From Oscillospiraceae bacterium (GTDB taxonomy: Bacteria > Bacillota > Clostridia > Oscillospirales > UBA929): a stretch of 41,676 bases of DNA. The position numbers were made by a program, and so were the translations under genes. The first letter of the stretch is position 1, and the number at the start of each line of letters is the position of its first letter. The notes under the pieces are model-generated. The model made no database searches. It was given only the letters and a program-made list of their open reading frames with translations, and was not told the DNA's origin. The stretch covers positions 1 through 41,676 of the forward strand of contig WRJE01000012.1 in NCBI GenBank assembly GCA_009782385.1, written 5' to 3'. Positions 1,028 to 28,360 of this stretch are shown one piece after another.

Positions 1028-1582
1028 TCAACAATTCCATTTCAATTTTGCCGGATTCGCTTCATCCGCCACAGCGATAGCGCGAAGTGCGTTGGTGTAA
1101 TCTACACATACTTCCTCCGCAATCTCCGCATACGCTTCCTCAACCGCTTTGAGCCCCACGCGATCATAAGCGACCGCCGCAGCCGCATAGAAGAACAATC
1201 CCAGTGAGTGCGTCAGCGTATGAACGACTGCCGAACCCTGTCCGACAGCCCGAGCCGCCGCCTGCGCTACCGGGTTGCCGTCAAGCTCACGAGCGGCGGC
1301 GTGGCACTCGTTGAGAATGATGTTCTTAACCATGGGGAACTTAACCTTGCCGTCAAGGTAATCATATGCGGCGTTCACTGCGTTTCTCGGGCGGTCATCG
1401 CCGGGACAGTGCTTCTCAAAGATAGGCAAGATTTTTTCTTCGGCGTATGCAAGACACCACTTGCGGATGGTGTCCTCGCTCTGTGTGTCAATCAGCTCTC
1501 TCAGCGCAATACAAGATGGCGCGTTTACATCGCCGAGCATTTTTCGTAGCTTTTTAGGCACGGGATGCACTCTCCTTTTCAA
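1028..1582 (-). CDS. Putative immunity protein (Imm5-like)
   Basis: 184 aa; WCLAYAEEKILPIFEKHCPGDDRPRNAVNAAYDYLDGK... and AAARAVGQGSAVVHTLTHSLGLFFYAAAAVAYDRVG pattern resembles the Imm5-like family. Confidence 0.6.
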   Translation of the reverse strand: MKRRVHPVPKKLRKMLGDVNAPSCIALRELIDTQSEDTIRKWCLAYAEEKILPIFEKHCPGDDRPRNAVNAAYDYLDGKVKFPMVKNIILNECHAAARELDGNPVAQAAARAVGQGSAVVHTLTHSLGLFFYAAAAVAYDRVGLKAVEEAYAEIAEEVCVDYTNALRAIAVADEANPAKLKWNC

Positions 1583-2503: not shown

Positions 2504-3712
2504 ATGCAGTTTGAACCAATTTCTCACTTAAAGGAAATGATGCGGATCCGAGGAATCAGCACACATTTTTTATCGCCACCGTACAGCGATGCTGTAAATT
2601 TTGATGATGGCTTACATCATCTGTTATATGGAGATTATGATTTCATAAGTTTTATTCAGGTAATGATTCAACGCTGTCAAATAGGAACTGTCTATTTGGC
2701 TAATGATAAATTTGAACTGAATTACATTCTCATTAAAACAAGCGCGGACGAGCTTATTATAATAGGTCCTTATGCCATACACCCTAATGAGTTGTTATTT
2801 AACATGGTCTGTGAACAAAATGATATCCCCGTTACACGATTGTCCGACATGAAGAAGTTTTTCTATGGCATTCCGTTTGTTGAACGCAGCGAAGTGCTGG
2901 AATCTGAAATAATTCTTATCGCAAAGTATATTTTGGATAACAATGATTATACAATAGAGAGGATTGATTTACCGTTTTATCTCTCTGAGCAGAATAACAA
3001 GATAAAAGAGTTATCCGACAGTAAACGTCCGCTGGCAATAATAGAAGCCCTTTACCAAAATGAGGATAACTACTTAGAAGCAGTGGAACGCGGAGATCTT
3101 AAACAGGCAACTCTATATATGAGTATGTTTAATAAGTTTACGATAGAGCAGCGGCACGCGGACAGCTTGCGGGATTTGAAAAACTACTGCTTCGTGCTAA
3201 ATACTCTGTTGCGTAAAGCGGTACAGCGGGCAGCGGTGCATCCCGCTTATATACATGAGTTGTCCGCCGAGTTTGCTGTTAAAATTGAAGCTGCCCGCAC
3301 AAGAGAGGAACTCTCGGTTAATATTACCCAATCAATGTTACGTAAATACTGCTTATTGGTTAATAACCACTCACTCAAAAATTACTCCCTGCCTGTACGT
3401 AAAGCGGTAAACTATATTGATTTTAATTTTTCGGAGCTAATAACACTGGAAATGATTGCCGAATCAGCTGCGGTCAACTACAGTTATCTCTCGTCACAGT
3501 TCAAAAAGGAGACAGGCTCGTCAGTAGTTGATTACATCAATAGAAACCGTATACAGAGAGCTTTTACGCTGTTAATTTCTACCTCTCTGTCAATTAACGC
3601 TATCGCTGAAAAATGCGGATTCAGCGATGACGCATATTTCACCCGCGTGTTCAAGAAAGTTCACGGCAAATCTCCTCGCGAATACCGGAAGAGTTTCTTT
3701 CTGCAAAAGTAG
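2504..3712 (+). CDS. AraC-family transcriptional regulator
   Basis: C-terminal double HTH: ITLEMIAESAAVNYSYLSSQFKKETGSSVVDYINRNRIQRAFTLLISTSLSINAIAEKCGFSDDAYFTRVFKKVHGKSPREYRK. GGAGG at 2494 upstream of ATG 2504; the longer ORF from 2390 is possible. Confidence 0.9.
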   Translation: MQFEPISHLKEMMRIRGISTHFLSPPYSDAVNFDDGLHHLLYGDYDFISFIQVMIQRCQIGTVYLANDKFELNYILIKTSADELIIIGPYAIHPNELLFNMVCEQNDIPVTRLSDMKKFFYGIPFVERSEVLESEIILIAKYILDNNDYTIERIDLPFYLSEQNNKIKELSDSKRPLAIIEALYQNEDNYLEAVERGDLKQATLYMSMFNKFTIEQRHADSLRDLKNYCFVLNTLLRKAVQRAAVHPAYIHELSAEFAVKIEAARTREELSVNITQSMLRKYCLLVNNHSLKNYSLPVRKAVNYIDFNFSELITLEMIAESAAVNYSYLSSQFKKETGSSVVDYINRNRIQRAFTLLISTSLSINAIAEKCGFSDDAYFTRVFKKVHGKSPREYRKSFFLQK

Positions 3713-3793
3713 GATTATTTCTAGGGAAAGCAGGATTATTTCTAGGTGATTTTTTTCACCTAAAAATAATCCGCTTTTTGCTAAAAATAATCC
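3712..3793. promoter_or_regulatory. Four-copy 14-bp operator (two direct copies, two inverted copies, 21-bp phasing)
   Basis: GGATTATTTCTAGG at 3712-3725 and 3733-3746; CCTAAAAATAATCC at 3759-3772; GCTAAAAATAATCC at 3780-3793. Confidence 0.7.
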
Positions 3794-3854
3794 TTTTATA
3801 TTCTCTCAAATAACTTTATGATTTGTATACAGAACAAATAGGAGGTGAATCCAT

Positions 3855-5684
3855 ATGTCATTTTCAAATTTATATCCTGTTACAACCTCGGTACGCAGAT
3901 TATCGGATTTAAGCGGTTTGTGGAATTTCAAGTTCGACCCGGACGGATTAGGGAAGAAAGAAAAATGGACTCAGGGCTTGCCATCGCCGATGACAATGCC
4001 TGTACCCGCGTCCTTCGCGGACATTTTCACCGACAAGAAGAGCCGTGAATACACAGGGGACTTCTGGTACGAAAAAGAAATATACATACCCGGCGAATGG
4101 AGAGACATGGAAGTAGGTCTGAGGTTTGAGGGTGCGGCTCATCGGGCAACGGTTTATGTAAATGGCACGAAAGCAGGTTCGCATGAGGGCGGATTCTTAC
4201 CTTTTACGGTGATTATCAGTAAATCGGTTGCTTTTGACGCACCTAACCTAATCAGCGTACAGGTAAACAACGAGCTGCGCGAAGACTGCCTGCCGGTCGG
4301 TCGGACCGCAGAGCTGGCTGACGGAAGTAAAATGGCTAAAGGGTATTTTGATTTCTTTAATTATTCCGGTTTAATACGCCCGGTTAAGTTAGTCGCCCTG
4401 CCTAAAAAGCATATTACGGATTACTCATTAACTTATTCGCTGATAGATAAATGCGCGGAGGTCAATTACAGCGTTACCGCTAATCATAAAAACGGATTTA
4501 GAGTTTCAGCAGCGATATACGATGAGTCCGGCAATCTTTCGGGAGAAGCCGAGGGCAAGGAGGGTAGCATCTACATCAGCAATGTCCGGCTGTGGGAAGT
4601 GCATAACGCATATTTATATAAATTTGTATTCAAAATCATTGACGGCGAAACCGTCATAGACGAATACACGGATCAAATCGGCATCCGCACATTTGAAATA
4701 GACGGACATGATTTTTTGCTGAACGGCAAACCCATATACATGAAAGGTTTCGGTAAGCACGAAGAGAGCGAATCATCAGGGCGGGGCTTAAACCCAAGCG
4801 TGTTAAAACGTGATTTTGAGTTGATGAAATGGATTGGGGCTAACTCATTCCGCACCGCTCATTACCCTCACAGCGAGGAGACTTTACGACTCGCGGATCG
4901 TGAGGGAATTATGGTTGTGGACGAAGTGGCGGCGGTAGGTTTAATGGCAAGCACCTTAAATTTCTTCGATGCAAGTCAAGGCCCTCAGACAAGGTTTTTC
5001 CAAAAAGAGACAACGGCAAAGCTGCTAGAACGGCATTTACAGCAGTTGAAAGAACTCATTCTCAGGGACAAAAACCGGGCTTGCGTTGTCGCTTGGTGCG
5101 TAGCTAATGAACCTGAAACCACGGATGACGAGTCCCGTCCGTATTTTGAAACGGTTTTTGCAAAGGCAAGGGCACTGGATCCGCAGCATCGCCCGTTAAC
5201 CTTTACATCGCTGATGACCGCAACGCCTGACAAATGTAAATGCGCGGATTTATGCGATTTTATAAGCCTTAACAGATATTATGGCTGGTATGTGTTCGGC
5301 GGCAACGAAATTACAGCGGCGGAAAACATTTTCAGGCAGGAATTAGCGGGCTGGACCGGACGCATACCCGATAAACCTTTTGTTTTCTCTGAATACGGTG
5401 CGGATACCGCCTCCGGCATACATAAATTACCCAGTGTTATGTGGAGCGAGGAATACCAGACAGAGTATCTGAATATGTGCCACAGAGTTTTTGATTCTCT
5501 GCCCTTTGTGCGCGGCGAACAGGTGTGGGCTTTTGCCGATTTTCAGACGGGCGAAGGAATTATGCGCGTTGACGGAAATAAGAAAGGTATCTTTACCCGC
5601 AGCAGACAACCAAAAGCCGCCGCGCATCTCTTAAAAGAGCGGTGGGAAGGATTACCGTTGCGGTTCAAATCAGAGGAGGAATGA
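3855..5684 (+). CDS. uidA: GH2 beta-glucuronidase (cytoplasmic)
   Basis: GH2 architecture; acid/base WCVANEPET, nucleophile FSEYGADT, and GNKKGIFTRSRQPKAAA containing the NxK glucuronate-recognition motif known from E. coli UidA. RBS GGAGGTG. No signal peptide. Confidence 0.88.
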   Translation: MSFSNLYPVTTSVRRLSDLSGLWNFKFDPDGLGKKEKWTQGLPSPMTMPVPASFADIFTDKKSREYTGDFWYEKEIYIPGEWRDMEVGLRFEGAAHRATVYVNGTKAGSHEGGFLPFTVIISKSVAFDAPNLISVQVNNELREDCLPVGRTAELADGSKMAKGYFDFFNYSGLIRPVKLVALPKKHITDYSLTYSLIDKCAEVNYSVTANHKNGFRVSAAIYDESGNLSGEAEGKEGSIYISNVRLWEVHNAYLYKFVFKIIDGETVIDEYTDQIGIRTFEIDGHDFLLNGKPIYMKGFGKHEESESSGRGLNPSVLKRDFELMKWIGANSFRTAHYPHSEETLRLADREGIMVVDEVAAVGLMASTLNFFDASQGPQTRFFQKETTAKLLERHLQQLKELILRDKNRACVVAWCVANEPETTDDESRPYFETVFAKARALDPQHRPLTFTSLMTATPDKCKCADLCDFISLNRYYGWYVFGGNEITAAENIFRQELAGWTGRIPDKPFVFSEYGADTASGIHKLPSVMWSEEYQTEYLNMCHRVFDSLPFVRGEQVWAFADFQTGEGIMRVDGNKKGIFTRSRQPKAAAHLLKERWEGLPLRFKSEEE

Positions 5685-5686
5685 TA

Positions 5687-7441
5687 ATGTATAAAAAGAG
5701 GGTTCTCTGCTTCATGCTCGCCGTGTTATTGATATTACCCGCTCTCGCGGCGTGCGGCGGCGATGCCGGCGGAGGCAATGCGTCATTCACTTGGTGGATA
5801 ATACAAGGTGCGGATGCCTCTTATTACGCGGCCTACGAAGATAATCCCGCCGTCCGCTATATGCTGTCAAAGACTTACAACGGCAGTAAAATTAGCCTCA
5901 ACTTTATGGTTCCCGTAGCCGGTTCAGAGCAGGACAACTTCAACACCCTGTTGGCCACAGGTGAGTATGCGGACATTATGGTTACGACCCAGTACCAAGG
6001 CTCTATCGAAGAACTGTATCGGGAGGGCATTATTCTGGATTTAACCGAATACATCGACAAATGGATGCCTAATTATAAGGCACTTTTAGAAAGCGACCCC
6101 GAAGCCTATATGTACGCTGCCCATATTGTTGACGGCGAACGCAAAAATTTGATACTGCTGGAGTTCGGCGACATAGTGGCGGACACATGGTGCGGTTACC
6201 AATACAGGCGGGACTGGATTGTAAAATATGGAAAAAACCCTTTTGACGGAAGTGGATTCAGCGGCAGTTACGACAGCGATGGGGAGTGGACGGATAATGT
6301 TATATTTCCCAATGGCGGCACTTATCCGATTTATATAAGCGACTGGGAATGGATGCTGAACATCTTTGCCGCCGCCATTGCTGACCTTGGTATTTCCGAT
6401 GGCTATCCTATAAGCATCGGGTACGGCGGATATTTCGGCACAGGCGACATATTCACCGGTTTTGGCGGCGGCGGTCCCACTTGGCATATCGACCCGAACA
6501 ACCAAATACAATTCGGCGGAACTTCCGCAAATATGCGCGCATATCTGCAATGTATGAACACATGGTTTGAGCGGGGGTGGATTGACAGGGCTTTTGCAGA
6601 ACGCTCGGCGGATATGTTCTATCGTATAGATGATGCCGGAGTGCGGCAGGGAAAGGTTGGTATGTGGATAGGCATACAGTCTCAGCTCGGATCGGGATTA
6701 GACAGCGACATGGGATTTGCCGAAGGCATGGTTTCCTTCGCTGCCCGCCAGCCTATTAACGATCTGTACGGAGGTTCTGAAGTTCAGGGCAAGACCCCCT
6801 ATTCCATGTATCAGATATCCAGAATCGGCGGGAGCTTAACCATCACTAGCAAAGCCGCTGAAAAAGACTTGGAAACACTGTTCACCTTCTTGGATTCCCT
6901 GTACACAAAAGAAGGCGGTTTGCTTATCCAGAGAGGGTTGTCAAAAGAACAGGTAGACGAAACCCAAGACGAATTTTACCTGCGTCATGGTCTGACGGAG
7001 GGAGGCTACCGCCCCGTTGAGACAGAGAGCGGAACTAAATATGAGATAACGGACGAGATTTACAATGACTTGGGTACGTTGGCGCAAGCTGCGGCCGCCC
7101 TGAGGCTTGGCACCGGCTGGGTTCCGCAGTCACTGCTGCAACCGCGAGGGTCGGGAAACTTCCTGCAAAGTCTGGATGAATGGATTGTATATAAATCCAC
7201 CGGATTTATGCAGCCGTCTTTCACGGCTATGCTCGCATCGGAAGACGCAAGACTTTACGCCAGAGGCAATACACAGGTCACTGAATTTTTGGAGCAAAAT
7301 CTGCCGTTGTTTGTGCGCGGTCAGCGCAATCCATTTGACGACACAGACTGGAATAACTACGTAGACGCACTTGAACGTTACAATCCGGGAAGAGTAACGG
7401 TTCTGTTTCAAAACTTGTTAAGTACACTTGCAGGAAAATAG
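5687..7441 (+). CDS. Extracellular solute-binding lipoprotein (LplA-like, CUT1 ABC transporter)
   Basis: MYKKRVLCFMLAVLLILPALAACGG lipobox; body similar to the 18242 and 36441 lipoproteins (DWEWML.IFA..IAD.GI.DGY). Confidence 0.85.
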   Translation: MYKKRVLCFMLAVLLILPALAACGGDAGGGNASFTWWIIQGADASYYAAYEDNPAVRYMLSKTYNGSKISLNFMVPVAGSEQDNFNTLLATGEYADIMVTTQYQGSIEELYREGIILDLTEYIDKWMPNYKALLESDPEAYMYAAHIVDGERKNLILLEFGDIVADTWCGYQYRRDWIVKYGKNPFDGSGFSGSYDSDGEWTDNVIFPNGGTYPIYISDWEWMLNIFAAAIADLGISDGYPISIGYGGYFGTGDIFTGFGGGGPTWHIDPNNQIQFGGTSANMRAYLQCMNTWFERGWIDRAFAERSADMFYRIDDAGVRQGKVGMWIGIQSQLGSGLDSDMGFAEGMVSFAARQPINDLYGGSEVQGKTPYSMYQISRIGGSLTITSKAAEKDLETLFTFLDSLYTKEGGLLIQRGLSKEQVDETQDEFYLRHGLTEGGYRPVETESGTKYEITDEIYNDLGTLAQAAAALRLGTGWVPQSLLQPRGSGNFLQSLDEWIVYKSTGFMQPSFTAMLASEDARLYARGNTQVTEFLEQNLPLFVRGQRNPFDDTDWNNYVDALERYNPGRVTVLFQNLLSTLAGK

Positions 7442-18179: not shown

Positions 18180-18241
18180 GGTTGTATCTATAGTGGTACA
18201 GCCATATTTTTTTGGTAAATATAAACACGGAGGTAAGAAAA

Positions 18242-20116
18242 ATGAAAAAGATTCTGTCAATTTTACTTGCGTTCTTAATGCTGTTTGCTATCCTGTCCGC
18301 CTGCGGCAGTACCGATGATAAGGACACCGCCGTACTGAAAACCGAAGAGTTTACCTATTGGTTATCTGTCGGCGAGAGTTCACTGTATTACACACAATAT
18401 CAAGACAATCCTGTTATGCAGTATATTATGAACAACATGACCTTCAAAAACAAGGACGGTGAAGACACAAAAATCAGCCTTAAATTTGAAACTCCCGCCT
18501 CGGGGCGGGAAGTAGACACCTATAACCTGATGATTTCAACGGACAGCTTACTTGACATAATGTGCATGAATTTCGGTATGCCCGTTGAGGATATGTACGA
18601 AGCCGGACAGATACTGGATCTCACCTATTATGTTGAAAATCATATGCCTAACTTCAAGGCGTATGTAGACGCGCATCCCGAATTGTACCCGTATCTCACA
18701 AAGGTGGTTGACGGCGAGAGAAAGTTTTTGAATATTCCGGGAGCGTTGGATCAGGCTAACATATACGATCAATTCTGCGGGGTTTGCTACAGGAGAGACT
18801 GGATTGTCAAGTACGGAAGCCCGCCCGCCGAGCTCTGGTCGCTCGACGCGAACAACAACAAGGTGTTCGCGCCTAACCCCAACGCGGGTGTTCCGTTCTC
18901 TTTCCGCTACACGCTCGACAAAGACGGAAACAGCATAGACACAACGGAGCTGACCGATAACGTTGATTCCGAGAGCTGGGTGGACAACATTATATTCCCA
19001 AGCGGTAACGCCGACCCGATTTATATAAGCGACTGGGAATGGATGATGGAGATTTTCGCCCGCGCCATTGCCGACCAAGGCATCAATGACGGATATGTTA
19101 TGAGCCTGTATTACCCCGGCTATATTCAAACGGGAGATATTACGTGCGGCTTCGGCGGCAAAGGTCCGTACTTCCAAATTGACAGGGACACGGGAAGAGC
19201 CACGTTCGGCGCGGCGGAGGAAGGCTTTAAGTCTTACTTGCAGTGCATGAACCAATGGTATCAGAACGGTTGGATTGATAAGGAGTTCCAAGATAAGAAC
19301 GATATGTTTTTCCAAATCGACGAGACAAAAATCTATCAGGGCAAAATTGCCCTGTGGATGGGCGCGGCAGCCCATGTCGGGTCAAGAATCAGGTCGGATG
19401 TGCAGCCTCTGACAGACGGCGCGATGGTTTTCGGCGCGCCTCAGCCCATAAATGACATTTACGGGCATGATTCGACAAAATTTGTACAGCCGTATGATAT
19501 GTTCGGCGGCGGCGACTTGCTTGGCGGCGGCGTTTGCGTGACAAACAAGGCAAAAGATAAAGACATAACCGTACTGATGGGATTTTTAGATTTCTTCTTT
19601 TCAGAGGAAGGCTCGATGCTCAAGACAATGGGGTTCAGCAAAGAGCAGTTAGAGCAGTTCCCCTCCGAACTCTATGATAAACACGGTCTGTCAGAGGGAG
19701 CGTATAGCAAAACGGCGGACGGAAAATTTATGTTTGACCCGATTATGGAAATGGACGACGGCGGCATCCGCAGCGTTATGTCGGCTAACCGTATCCCCGG
19801 ATTAACGAGAAACTCGGTAATCCAATACAACTATACACCCACTTATATACATTCGCGCGAAAATTGGGTCAAATATCCCGCGACAGGCTTTCTCGGCGGT
19901 ATGTTCAGAGGGCAGATGATGCCGGACGAACAGCGTGTAATGGAACAGGTCGGCACGGTGCTTGAGAGGGAATATATGCACATTGAAGTACCTAAGTTTA
20001 TAACGGGAGACAAGAATTTCGAGGGCGACTATGACACATTCCTTAACAATCTGGAAAAGAGAAACTATCATCGGGTTGTAGAAGCGTTAAACGCGACAAT
20101 CGATAGATTGAAATAA
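18242..20116 (+). CDS. Extracellular solute-binding lipoprotein (LplA-like)
   Basis: MKKILSILLAFLMLFAILSACGS lipobox, GGAGG RBS; clearly paralogous to 5687-7441. Confidence 0.87.
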   Translation: MKKILSILLAFLMLFAILSACGSTDDKDTAVLKTEEFTYWLSVGESSLYYTQYQDNPVMQYIMNNMTFKNKDGEDTKISLKFETPASGREVDTYNLMISTDSLLDIMCMNFGMPVEDMYEAGQILDLTYYVENHMPNFKAYVDAHPELYPYLTKVVDGERKFLNIPGALDQANIYDQFCGVCYRRDWIVKYGSPPAELWSLDANNNKVFAPNPNAGVPFSFRYTLDKDGNSIDTTELTDNVDSESWVDNIIFPSGNADPIYISDWEWMMEIFARAIADQGINDGYVMSLYYPGYIQTGDITCGFGGKGPYFQIDRDTGRATFGAAEEGFKSYLQCMNQWYQNGWIDKEFQDKNDMFFQIDETKIYQGKIALWMGAAAHVGSRIRSDVQPLTDGAMVFGAPQPINDIYGHDSTKFVQPYDMFGGGDLLGGGVCVTNKAKDKDITVLMGFLDFFFSEEGSMLKTMGFSKEQLEQFPSELYDKHGLSEGAYSKTADGKFMFDPIMEMDDGGIRSVMSANRIPGLTRNSVIQYNYTPTYIHSRENWVKYPATGFLGGMFRGQMMPDEQRVMEQVGTVLEREYMHIEVPKFITGDKNFEGDYDTFLNNLEKRNYHRVVEALNATIDRLK

Positions 20117-23822: not shown

Positions 23823-25856
23823 ATGGTGGCTAAAGTGAAAGAACTGTACGATGCTAAGAAAGACCCTGAATTTCAAAAGCCCTATGTTGACATTGACGAG
23901 TGGAGAGAAGACGCGGTCCGCTATCGGTACATACACGGCGGGTTCGAGGGTACGGATACAAGATTTTCGTTTTTCTTTCCCGATAAAGAGCAGTATAAAG
24001 GACGGTTTTATCACTTTATGGCACCCGCTCCCGGCAGTGAAAACGCTTCTATCCTCAGGGAAGGCGAGGAGGACAAAATCGCGTTTGCGATAACTCACGG
24101 CGCGTATTTTGTCGAGACAAATATGGGCGTTACAAGCCCCTTCGCGCCTGTTTCCGACCCGACCCTTATCTATCGCTCAAGCGCGGCGGCGGCGGAATAT
24201 TCCCGCGTTAAAGCGGCGGAATTATACGGCGAACACCGCCCTTTCGGATATGTCTACGGCGGCAGCGGCGGCGGTTATAAATCCACAAGCTGCTTGGAAA
24301 GTGCCACAGCTTGGGACGGAGCCGCTCCTTATATAATCGGTTCGCCCATGGCGATTCCAAACGTGTTTTCCGTTCGCGCTCTCGCAAGGCGCATACTCCG
24401 CAATAAACTGCATTTGATTGTGGACGCTATGGAACCGGGCGGCGACAAAGATTTTATAGAAAAGTTGTCCGAAGAGGAACGGTCGGTGTGGAACGAGGTC
24501 ACACAAATGGGCTATCCGACCCGCTCATGGTTCTTCTATGAGACAATGGACGATGGCGCGCTCCCCGTCCTAACGCCCGGTATCGAGCGCATTGACAGCA
24601 CATACTATAAGGATTTCTGGACACTGCCGGGCTATGAGGGAACTAATCCTAACGGCTCTGCCGCCAAGGACAGGATATTCTTTGAAACTGCTATAGCAGA
24701 TATTCACGTCCCCGAACGTGACGGCGAGATAAAACCTGATGCCGATGAAAGCGGCGCGGATAACTCATGGAAGCAGAATCGCGGCGACAAAGGATTAAGC
24801 TCACGCCCCATGTTGCGCCTTGATAACGCACCAACGGGCGACTTGTACCTATACGGCACAAAAATAGTTTTCGTAACGGGCGAAGCGGCGGGATACAGCG
24901 TCCCTCTGGAATCGCTTGACAATAAAACAGCGGTAATCGGCGCGGGATTCGGACAGCCCGACATCCTTGAAAACCTTCTGAAAGTTAAGACAGGCGATAA
25001 AATCCGTCTGGATAACTCGGATTACATCGCCATCCAATACTACCACCGCCATCAAGTACCCGATTCGAGCTACCCCGTGTGGAATCAATTCCGTGATGAT
25101 AAGGGTGCGCCGTTATACCCGCAGCGTCCGATGCTTGTCGGACCGATGATTTCGGCGGGCGGCGCGGGTTCACTGCAAAGCGGTCGCTTTAACGGAAAGA
25201 TGATTGTTCTCGCAGCCTTGATGGATGAAAGCGCGTTCCCGTGGCAGGCTGATTGGTATCGCCAAAGGGTAAAGGAAGCGTTGGGCGATAACACCGATGA
25301 CTCTTTCAGATTATGGTTCATGGATAATGCCCTGCATGATGACAGGTATACCACCACCGATGAGCTGCACTTAATCAGCTACTTGGGTGCGCTTCATCAG
25401 GCGTTGCTTGATTTGTCTGACTGGGTGGAAAACGGGACAGCTCCCGCCGAAACATCGGTATATGCCGTTGAGAACGGTCAAATGGTTGTTCCCGCCACGG
25501 CTGACGAACGAAAGGGCGTTCAGCCCGTGATCCGCCTAAAGGTTAACGGAGGCGAAGCCGCGCATATTTCATGCGGTGAGGCCGCCTATTTCAACGCCGA
25601 TGTCTCGCTTCCCGCAGGGACAGGCAAGCTGACCTCTGCGGAATGGAGTTTTGAGGGTGAGGGTTATACAGATGAAGGCACATTCAGCGGCATGAGCGCG
25701 GACGGCGCAAGCGCAACGGTCGAAGCGGTATATCATTTCAACAAACCGGGAACATATTTCGCTGTTTTGCGGGTAAAAGCGCAGAGGCACGGCAACGCAG
25801 GCTGTATCTTTACACAGGTAAAGAACCTGTGCCGTGTGCGCGTTGTCGTTAAATGA
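23823..25856 (+). CDS. Tannase/feruloyl-esterase-like alpha/beta hydrolase with C-terminal PKD-like beta domain
   Basis: 677 aa; nucleophile elbow VYGGSGGGYKS; downstream MDESAFPWQADWYRQRV and DNALHDDR supply plausible Asp and His; no signal peptide. Confidence 0.6.
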   Translation: MVAKVKELYDAKKDPEFQKPYVDIDEWREDAVRYRYIHGGFEGTDTRFSFFFPDKEQYKGRFYHFMAPAPGSENASILREGEEDKIAFAITHGAYFVETNMGVTSPFAPVSDPTLIYRSSAAAAEYSRVKAAELYGEHRPFGYVYGGSGGGYKSTSCLESATAWDGAAPYIIGSPMAIPNVFSVRALARRILRNKLHLIVDAMEPGGDKDFIEKLSEEERSVWNEVTQMGYPTRSWFFYETMDDGALPVLTPGIERIDSTYYKDFWTLPGYEGTNPNGSAAKDRIFFETAIADIHVPERDGEIKPDADESGADNSWKQNRGDKGLSSRPMLRLDNAPTGDLYLYGTKIVFVTGEAAGYSVPLESLDNKTAVIGAGFGQPDILENLLKVKTGDKIRLDNSDYIAIQYYHRHQVPDSSYPVWNQFRDDKGAPLYPQRPMLVGPMISAGGAGSLQSGRFNGKMIVLAALMDESAFPWQADWYRQRVKEALGDNTDDSFRLWFMDNALHDDRYTTTDELHLISYLGALHQALLDLSDWVENGTAPAETSVYAVENGQMVVPATADERKGVQPVIRLKVNGGEAAHISCGEAAYFNADVSLPAGTGKLTSAEWSFEGEGYTDEGTFSGMSADGASATVEAVYHFNKPGTYFAVLRVKAQRHGNAGCIFTQVKNLCRVRVVVK

Positions 25857-27220: not shown

Positions 27221-28360
27221 ATGAAAACTTTGAAAACCTTCGCACAGGTGTTGTGCGTCATCTTAGTTTTTACATTATTGCTCAGTGCCTGCGGCAGCGA
27301 AACGCCCGCCGCGACACCCACACCCGCGCCCGCGACACCCGCGCCCGCAACCCCGGCGGTTACCGAACCCGAGGACGAACCCGCCCCCGCGGAAGTCAAA
27401 ATGACAGACGGTTACTTCTTCTATAACGGACCCAGAACCGGCGACATGGACAGCTGGATTCGCTTTAATGAAGACGGCACATGGTACGGTAAGTATTTCA
27501 TGGGCGGCGTTGTTGAGGCGGGGCTGTACGAAGTCCTTGACAAGAGCATGGATTACATTTCCGACTTCGGGCCTGACGGCGAACCCGAAACCGGTGACGA
27601 TGTAATAGCCACCGCCAATCAAGTTGTAGCGTTCACCAACTATGCCACAGGAGATGTACAAGAAGTCGCTTTTACAGGAGATCAGCTCTGTGACTTCTCT
27701 TTGGGCGGTATGTCCCACCACAATACCCTCACGCACAAACCCGAATATAACTATGTCCACAGTGTGGAAGAAATCGCCATCGCCGTTCAAACCTTCTATT
27801 ATGAAAACGACACCGGGTCGTCCTTAACCTTGTACCACAACAGAACGTTCAACGACTATACAACCGCCGGGGAAGACGGCACATGGGATATGGCGGGCGG
27901 CTCATACACCCTTACGTCATCCGATGGGAATGTGTATACGCTGACCGTTTCCGAAAACGGCAAGATGGCGAACTATGTAAAAGGCGGCGATACACTGGAA
28001 CTGTCAAGCACAACAAGCGATGCTCTGTACACGTTTGAAGCGGTCACCATGCCCGACGGCTTACCGATGGAAATTGATATAGAACTGCGCTGTAAGCCCG
28101 ACGGTTCGGTTGAAGTTGTTATCATGCACGATATGATGGGTGTCATTGCAATAGATAAAGGCACATTTGTCATTGAAAACATGGTGTTCATCAGCTTCGA
28201 GCTTGAAAACGGCGGCGCGTTCGCGGGAGAACCGGATTTTGCCTCCGCAACGGAATCGGGCATAAATGTGAGTGTGCCATATAAAGCGGATGTGCATCTC
28301 GCTGATTTTGGAATGGATTTGAGCTTTGACTGCGTTCTCGAAGGAGCTATAACTGCATAA
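27221..28360 (+). CDS. Uncharacterised beta-rich lipoprotein, related in layout to 7453-8934
   Basis: MKTLKTFAQVLCVILVFTLLLSACGSE lipobox, Pro/Thr/Ala linker, DGYFFYNG...FNEDGTWYGKYFMGG and SLTLYHNRTFND...GTWDMAGGSYTL. Confidence 0.75.
   Translation: MKTLKTFAQVLCVILVFTLLLSACGSETPAATPTPAPATPAPATPAVTEPEDEPAPAEVKMTDGYFFYNGPRTGDMDSWIRFNEDGTWYGKYFMGGVVEAGLYEVLDKSMDYISDFGPDGEPETGDDVIATANQVVAFTNYATGDVQEVAFTGDQLCDFSLGGMSHHNTLTHKPEYNYVHSVEEIAIAVQTFYYENDTGSSLTLYHNRTFNDYTTAGEDGTWDMAGGSYTLTSSDGNVYTLTVSENGKMANYVKGGDTLELSSTTSDALYTFEAVTMPDGLPMEIDIELRCKPDGSVEVVIMHDMMGVIAIDKGTFVIENMVFISFELENGGAFAGEPDFASATESGINVSVPYKADVHLADFGMDLSFDCVLEGAITA

Follow-up and report, generated by a model that had tools for sequence, protein, structure and literature searches.

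A candidate four-half-site operator for an AraC-type regulator ahead of a β-glucuronidase gene in an Oscillospiraceae bacterium

The β-glucuronidases of gut Clostridia free drugs, hormones and plant compounds from glucuronides. For AraC, the araI spacing is 21 bp, and extra sites (araO1) lie near the divergent regulator promoter. At Pm, the XylS site consists of two 15-bp direct repeats (PMC5481539), the MtlR site at PmtlE is described as at least 37 bp upstream of the -35 element (PMC4514859), and the title of Samarasinghe 2008, as cited in PMC4514859, names four MelR molecules in melR autorepression. The AraC-family sites of Caldicellulosiruptor bescii are tandem repeats with large spacers, lie upstream of the promoter and have been read as activator sites (PMC8579813). 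The β-glucuronidase operon of Escherichia coli is repressed by the well-described GusR (UidR), a TetR-family protein (PMC9881133). In gut metagenomes, GUS/C7D2 transporter loci have been reported with an AraC-type gene next to them, in a paper whose text makes no mention of an operator, promoter or intergenic region (PMC4732671), and the open-licence papers that we searched hold no description of an operator for AraC-type regulators beside Clostridia β-glucuronidase genes.

The window, by which we mean the whole 41,676-nucleotide stretch of DNA analyzed here, shows the same gene partnership as the GUS/C7D2 gut loci, and an array of four half-sites lies between its araC-type gene and its GH2 gene (Table 1). 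We consider it highly probable that the neighboring AraC-type regulator has the array as its operator, in which the right pair would activate GH2, the left pair would be a mirror site, and the stem probably helps to end the araC transcript. As in XylS/Pm and MtlR/PmtlE, there are two direct half-sites, each for a double helix-turn-helix (HTH), directly upstream of a weak -35 element, an arrangement that would suit an activating dimer; the window system differs from both in its motif, TAAAAATWWTMC, in its regulator subfamily and in its second, mirror-image pair. The likeness to AraC at araI1/araI2 lies in the 21-bp spacing and in further sites close to a divergent regulator promoter, but the N-terminal domain of the window regulator is unlike PDB entries and the sites form a near-perfect palindrome, which sets the system apart from AraC and from MelR (melAB/melR). 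The C. bescii sites are likewise tandem repeats upstream of a promoter, but they belong to other regulators and sugars, and KdgR/XynR are the regulators assigned to the glucuronide genes of that species. GusR is, like the window protein, a local regulator of a β-glucuronidase operon, but the two are unrelated.

Table 1. Coordinates of the regulator, operator, promoter and target gene features in the window
Feature	Position	Strand	Basis
araC-type regulator gene, 402 aa	2504..3712	+	Pfam HTH_18 4.5e-22, HTH_AraC; AlphaFold pLDDT 89
Whole quasi-palindrome, 39-bp arms and 6-nt loop (3750-3755)	3711..3794	.	Inverted-repeat and fold analysis
Left outer half-site GGATTATTTCTAGG	3712..3725	+	Exact copy; reverse half-site at ~-52 in relatives, -50 here
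Left inner half-site GGATTATTTCTAGG	3733..3746	+	Exact copy; reverse half-site at -31 in nine relatives, -29 here
Right inner (promoter-distal) half-site, + strand reads CCTAAAAATAATCC	3759..3772	-	Within motif match 3762-3799
T-rich tract past inner stem, possible U-tract of an araC mRNA terminator	3774..3779	+	Fold
Right outer (promoter-proximal) half-site, + strand reads GCTAAAAATAATCC, adjoins -35	3780..3793	-	Motif match
Weak -35 TTTTAT, GH2 promoter	3794..3799	+	Sequence
-10 TATGAT, 23 bp past half-site	3817..3822	+	Sequence
Ribosome-binding site AGGAGGTG	3840..3847	+	Sequence
GH2 gene, β-glucuronidase	3855..5684	+	NF007538 728 bits (cut-off 544); PDB 7kgy β-glucuronidase 5e-226

Residues 297-397 of the regulator form the C-terminal double HTH of about 100 amino acids that marks a member of the AraC/XylS family, and the fold of this DNA-binding domain resembles the AraC, MarA and AdpA domains in the PDB (TM-score by target, 0.74 to 0.92). 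Residues 1-290 gave no Pfam match, that to an AraC-type cupin sugar-binding domain included; an N-terminal cupin domain is not needed for membership in the wider AraC/XylS family. AlphaFold models the N-terminal half as mixed alpha/beta and then helical, and confident PDB fold matches were confined to the C-terminal domain, the N-terminal half having no convincing one. This half (window positions 2504-3370) is well conserved in the AraC subfamily, with invariant GP, YxxEN and RKxxxxxxVHP and a confident model, and it shows a sub-threshold NCBIfam likeness to YSIRK-associated regulators.

The best structural relatives of the GH2 protein are solved β-glucuronidases. Downstream of it lie transport genes, two GH78-type α-rhamnosidases, a GH3 enzyme and an MFS_2 permease, because of which the cluster looks like one for glucuronide- and rhamnose-bearing glycans. 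Long open reading frames that match nothing in Pfam are also found in the cluster (window positions 5642-7441, 18212-20116, 23823-25856 and 27221-28360). The araC gene is upstream of GH2 in tandem, a divergent araC promoter is absent, and the region ahead of the window's araC gene gave no motif match. The -35 and -10 hexamers proposed in the first-pass annotation are both present, 17 bp apart, and the -35 is poor. Elsewhere in the genome there is one uxaC gene (uronate isomerase), at which the paired site is not repeated, according to a pair-pattern search of the whole assembly, the one incomplete genome (88% complete) that represents the species.

The half-site GGATTATTTCTAGG is present in two exact forward copies and two inverse copies, the inner inverse copy with one mismatch and the outer with two, and the start-to-start distance is 21 bp within the left pair and within the right pair alike. 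The direct repeat covers 20 nt at 95% identity and reaches upstream as AAAGYAGGATTATTTCTAGG. All four copies are part of 21-bp units (AAAGYAGGATTATTTYTAGGK) set two against two about a T6 loop, the two arms (3711-3749 and 3756-3794) are complementary at 32 of 39 positions, and the resulting quasi-palindrome is by a wide margin the longest inverted repeat of the window. The array begins inside the araC stop codon, a TAG at 3710-3712. In Markov simulations of intergenic sequence, the direct pair reached at most 13 of 14 positions (observed, 14 of 14) and the palindrome score at most 12 (observed, 25); the four-site array is above chance by far. Searched with up to 3 mismatches, the pair pattern matched the 2.17-Mb assembly at the window array and nowhere else, and its reversed control gave 0 matches. 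Thus, the first-pass annotation had the copies, their spacing, their two-against-two orientation and their start at the end of the AraC gene right, and the genome scan that it proposed returned the paired site once, beside its own regulator gene. The inner copies also pair, as it had described for a 17-bp stem with a T6 loop, but the pairing is wider, continuing through GGTGA/TCACC and the A/T-rich linker, and the hairpin spans all 84 bp of the array.

In 57 relatives, most matches of the same pair pattern sat at the limit of 3 mismatches and the reversed control also matched a few times; the best pattern match lay inside an HTH gene unrelated to the araC/GH2 system. Among 80 GH2 relatives examined, 17 had a clear regulator homolog upstream, in divergent orientation, and a one-site-per-sequence model was trained on 16 of these araC/GH2 intergenic regions, all from other bacteria, with the window excluded. 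The learned motif, AAAAAAaaTACGaAaAt.aa.AAAAATT.TaCTCAC, consists of two half-sites 21 bp apart. Used blind on both strands of 840 kb of the window's genome, taken in stretches, it placed the right pair of the window (3762-3799) at rank 1, with a score of 12.2 versus 11.0 for the runner-up against a promoter background (most relatives, 18 to 43) and with a larger lead, 19.4 versus 15.1, against a genome background. The motif is AT-rich and weak single hits mean little, so the argument is made by phasing, position, strand and linkage jointly. In leave-group-out runs, 13 of the 16 sites ranked first in their own locus, one ranked second, and those of L130 and L137 were weak or shifted; four araC-linked GH2 promoters of the 16 (L090, L093, L130 and L137) have no convincing right pair. 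The letters AAAAATAATCC of the right outer half-site are the same in L046, L049 and L123. The locus was not found in the same-genus genomes searched, and a direct scan of genome contigs with the AraC protein as query gave no match.

A further set of 27 loci with AraC homologs, from the same order and none of them used in training, was searched up to 600 bp upstream of araC. The motif was found in 18 of these loci, and none of 200 shuffles did equally well; the other nine had no site. Every one of the 18 sites is on the strand that points away from araC. From the proximal half-site onward, the distance to the best -10-like hexamer is 23 bp in 11 loci and 24 bp in the other 7, with 24 positions allowed and ties resolved towards 23, the distance found in the window. 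The relatives' -35 elements at this place are also weak (TCACTG, TCACGA and similar). Most of the genes beside the sites encode GPH/MFS_2 permeases or GH2 enzymes, β-glucuronidase among the targets. In GH2 loci that have no linked AraC gene the motif is absent, with scores of about 4 or less. Both sequence marks of an AraC-type class II activator operator, a pair of direct half-sites with a spacing of about 21 bp and a proximal half-site that adjoins or overlaps the -35 and keeps its distance to the -10, are found in the window and in the relatives, which as a sample are phylogenetically non-independent. The AraC-operator reading of the first-pass annotation therefore gains strong support from homologous AraC-linked promoters, where the 21-bp phase, the place at the -35 and the -10 distance are kept; loss of the repeats in orthologous loci would have spoken against it, and the sites are conserved with an AraC homolog and absent where there is none.

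Two other promoters drew our attention. In L059, a second motif copy (1417-1454, minus strand) lies downstream of araC, in tandem, ahead of another GH2-like gene; this is a tandem layout in a relative, with no mirror pair. The GH2 promoter of Bifidobacterium tissieri (L164) carries perfect 18-bp palindromes, TTAGTGTGATCACACTAA, repeated just upstream of the GH2 start, which are probably the operator of a different regulator.

A scan of the opposite strand, on which the motif had no training, found a second pair in nine GH2 promoters, always with the same 20-bp gap, so that the mirror-image arrangement seen by the first-pass annotation in the window extends to relatives. The forward half-sites lie at -1/+20 in the nine promoters and in the window, and the reverse ones at -31 and ~-52 in the nine and at -29/-50 in the window, where the center between the pairs is 2 bp shorter. 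Since these offsets are nearly equal, GH2 promoters of Lachnospiraceae, Eubacteriaceae and Oscillospiraceae share a mirror design of four half-sites in 21-bp phase. In the relatives the left sites fall on the divergent promoter of araC itself, with the inner half-site within the spacer (in L104, TTGAAA-17 bp-GATAAT on the minus strand), and this overlap suggests araC autoregulation there. The window has no araC promoter hexamers at its left sites, as expected given that its araC gene is not divergent. The left pair is absent from the loci of the regulators that lie closest on the tree (L123, L095/L125 and L046/L049) and from the permease-promoter group; because the nearest regulators lack it, the left pair of the window may be a separate inverted duplication rather than ancestral.

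The RNA of the array is predicted to fold at -40 kcal/mol (z = -7.5; z = -5.1 in a second comparison alongside relatives). The operator region of the relatives shows no unusual fold, with z about 0 and at most -3.8. Because the window is alone in folding at -40 kcal/mol, hairpin formation is, on these predictions, a local addition in the window, and its position upstream of the inferred GH2 start would make it part of the araC message. An intrinsic terminator is classically a GC-rich stem with a U-tract directly after it. The stem of the array is long and AT-rich, with UUUUUG after the inner part and UUUUAUAUU after the outer. A terminator role for araC is plausible from these U-rich tracts, but a simple consensus scan called no terminator at the hairpin. 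Of the combined operator and terminator functions put forward at first pass, the combination itself may still hold, but the strong hairpin is found only in the window and is not conserved. This genome has many strong 3' hairpins, and at 44 of 421 gene ends the fold is more stable than that of the array. A dispersed GC-rich hairpin of the GTAGGGGCGGCC...GGCCGCCCCTAC type follows many of its genes (in L067, L076, L078, L080, L082 and L083), and intergenic quasi-palindromes built of short tandem units (TAAGTGT, TTAACAATTAACAG and AACAGATAACAG) occur at L074:18097-18176, at L077:12680-12765 and after the gene at L069:5787-6290. A known structured RNA was rejected for the array itself, for which Rfam gave nothing above the gathering score and sub-threshold miRNA models only.

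It is possible, if somewhat doubtful, that only the right pair is an operator and that the left pair was kept or copied mainly to pair with it and terminate araC, not for binding. Complementarity that runs through linkers and center goes beyond what binding sites alone need, the hairpin is confined to the window with its tandem araC, and the closest regulators have no left pair. However, the 21-bp phase is preserved in the left half-sites, and their positions differ by no more than 2 bp from those of the left half-sites in the nine relatives, as would be expected of a binding site, and a C.A mismatch is kept in both copies of the stem. We find it very unlikely that the array serves araC solely as an intrinsic terminator, or as a hairpin protecting the 3' end, with its repeats a by-product of a long AT-rich stem: so stable a hairpin starting at the araC stop codon, with U-rich tracts after it, in a genome rich in strong 3' hairpins, would fit, but the relatives keep the sites with no hairpin, the motif, phase and -10 distance are conserved, and a terminator has no need of a 23-bp register to a downstream -10. 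An inserted dispersed repeat or mobile palindrome, for which the other repeat-built intergenic palindromes of the genome might speak, can be set aside, since the array has a single genomic copy and none in viral contigs, and other bacteria carry similar sites at this point in the promoter.

In the operator reading that we prefer, a regulator dimer would sit on the right pair, two direct half-sites of ~17 bp whose 21-bp spacing would put them on one face of the DNA. Adjoining the weak -35, 23 bp ahead of the -10, the bound dimer would activate the β-glucuronidase operon, like XylS at Pm or AraC at araI1/I2; by analogy with XylS/Pm and MtlR, a dimer beside a poor -35 would recruit RNA polymerase. 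The left pair would be a second, mirror-image dimer site, nearly where the relatives' sites sit in the divergent araC promoter; with araC in tandem and that promoter absent, it would most likely act on the glucuronidase promoter. It may serve a second dimer there, which on the first-pass suggestion could act together with the first or switch states, bring about repression when no inducer is present, or be simply one half of the stem, and the two pairs together would form the stem that probably helps to end the araC transcript. The target genes point to glucuronate or a glucuronide as the probable inducer.

The analysis provides a concrete candidate site for an uncharacterized AraC subfamily, TAAAAATWWTMC twice at 21 bp, 23 bp ahead of the -10, and the window array is a case of a candidate operator and a hairpin on the same bases. 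The subfamily may consist of AraC regulators for glucuronide use, and in the window the left pair may also take part in 3'-end formation. We offer as a speculation, and one that we think unlikely as a whole, that the divergent promoter was lost, that araC came to lie in tandem and that the mirrored operator then became a near-perfect palindrome, an 84-bp element that is both a two-dimer operator and the araC terminator. If so, regulator binding and 3'-end formation on that element could interfere, giving feedback on araC.
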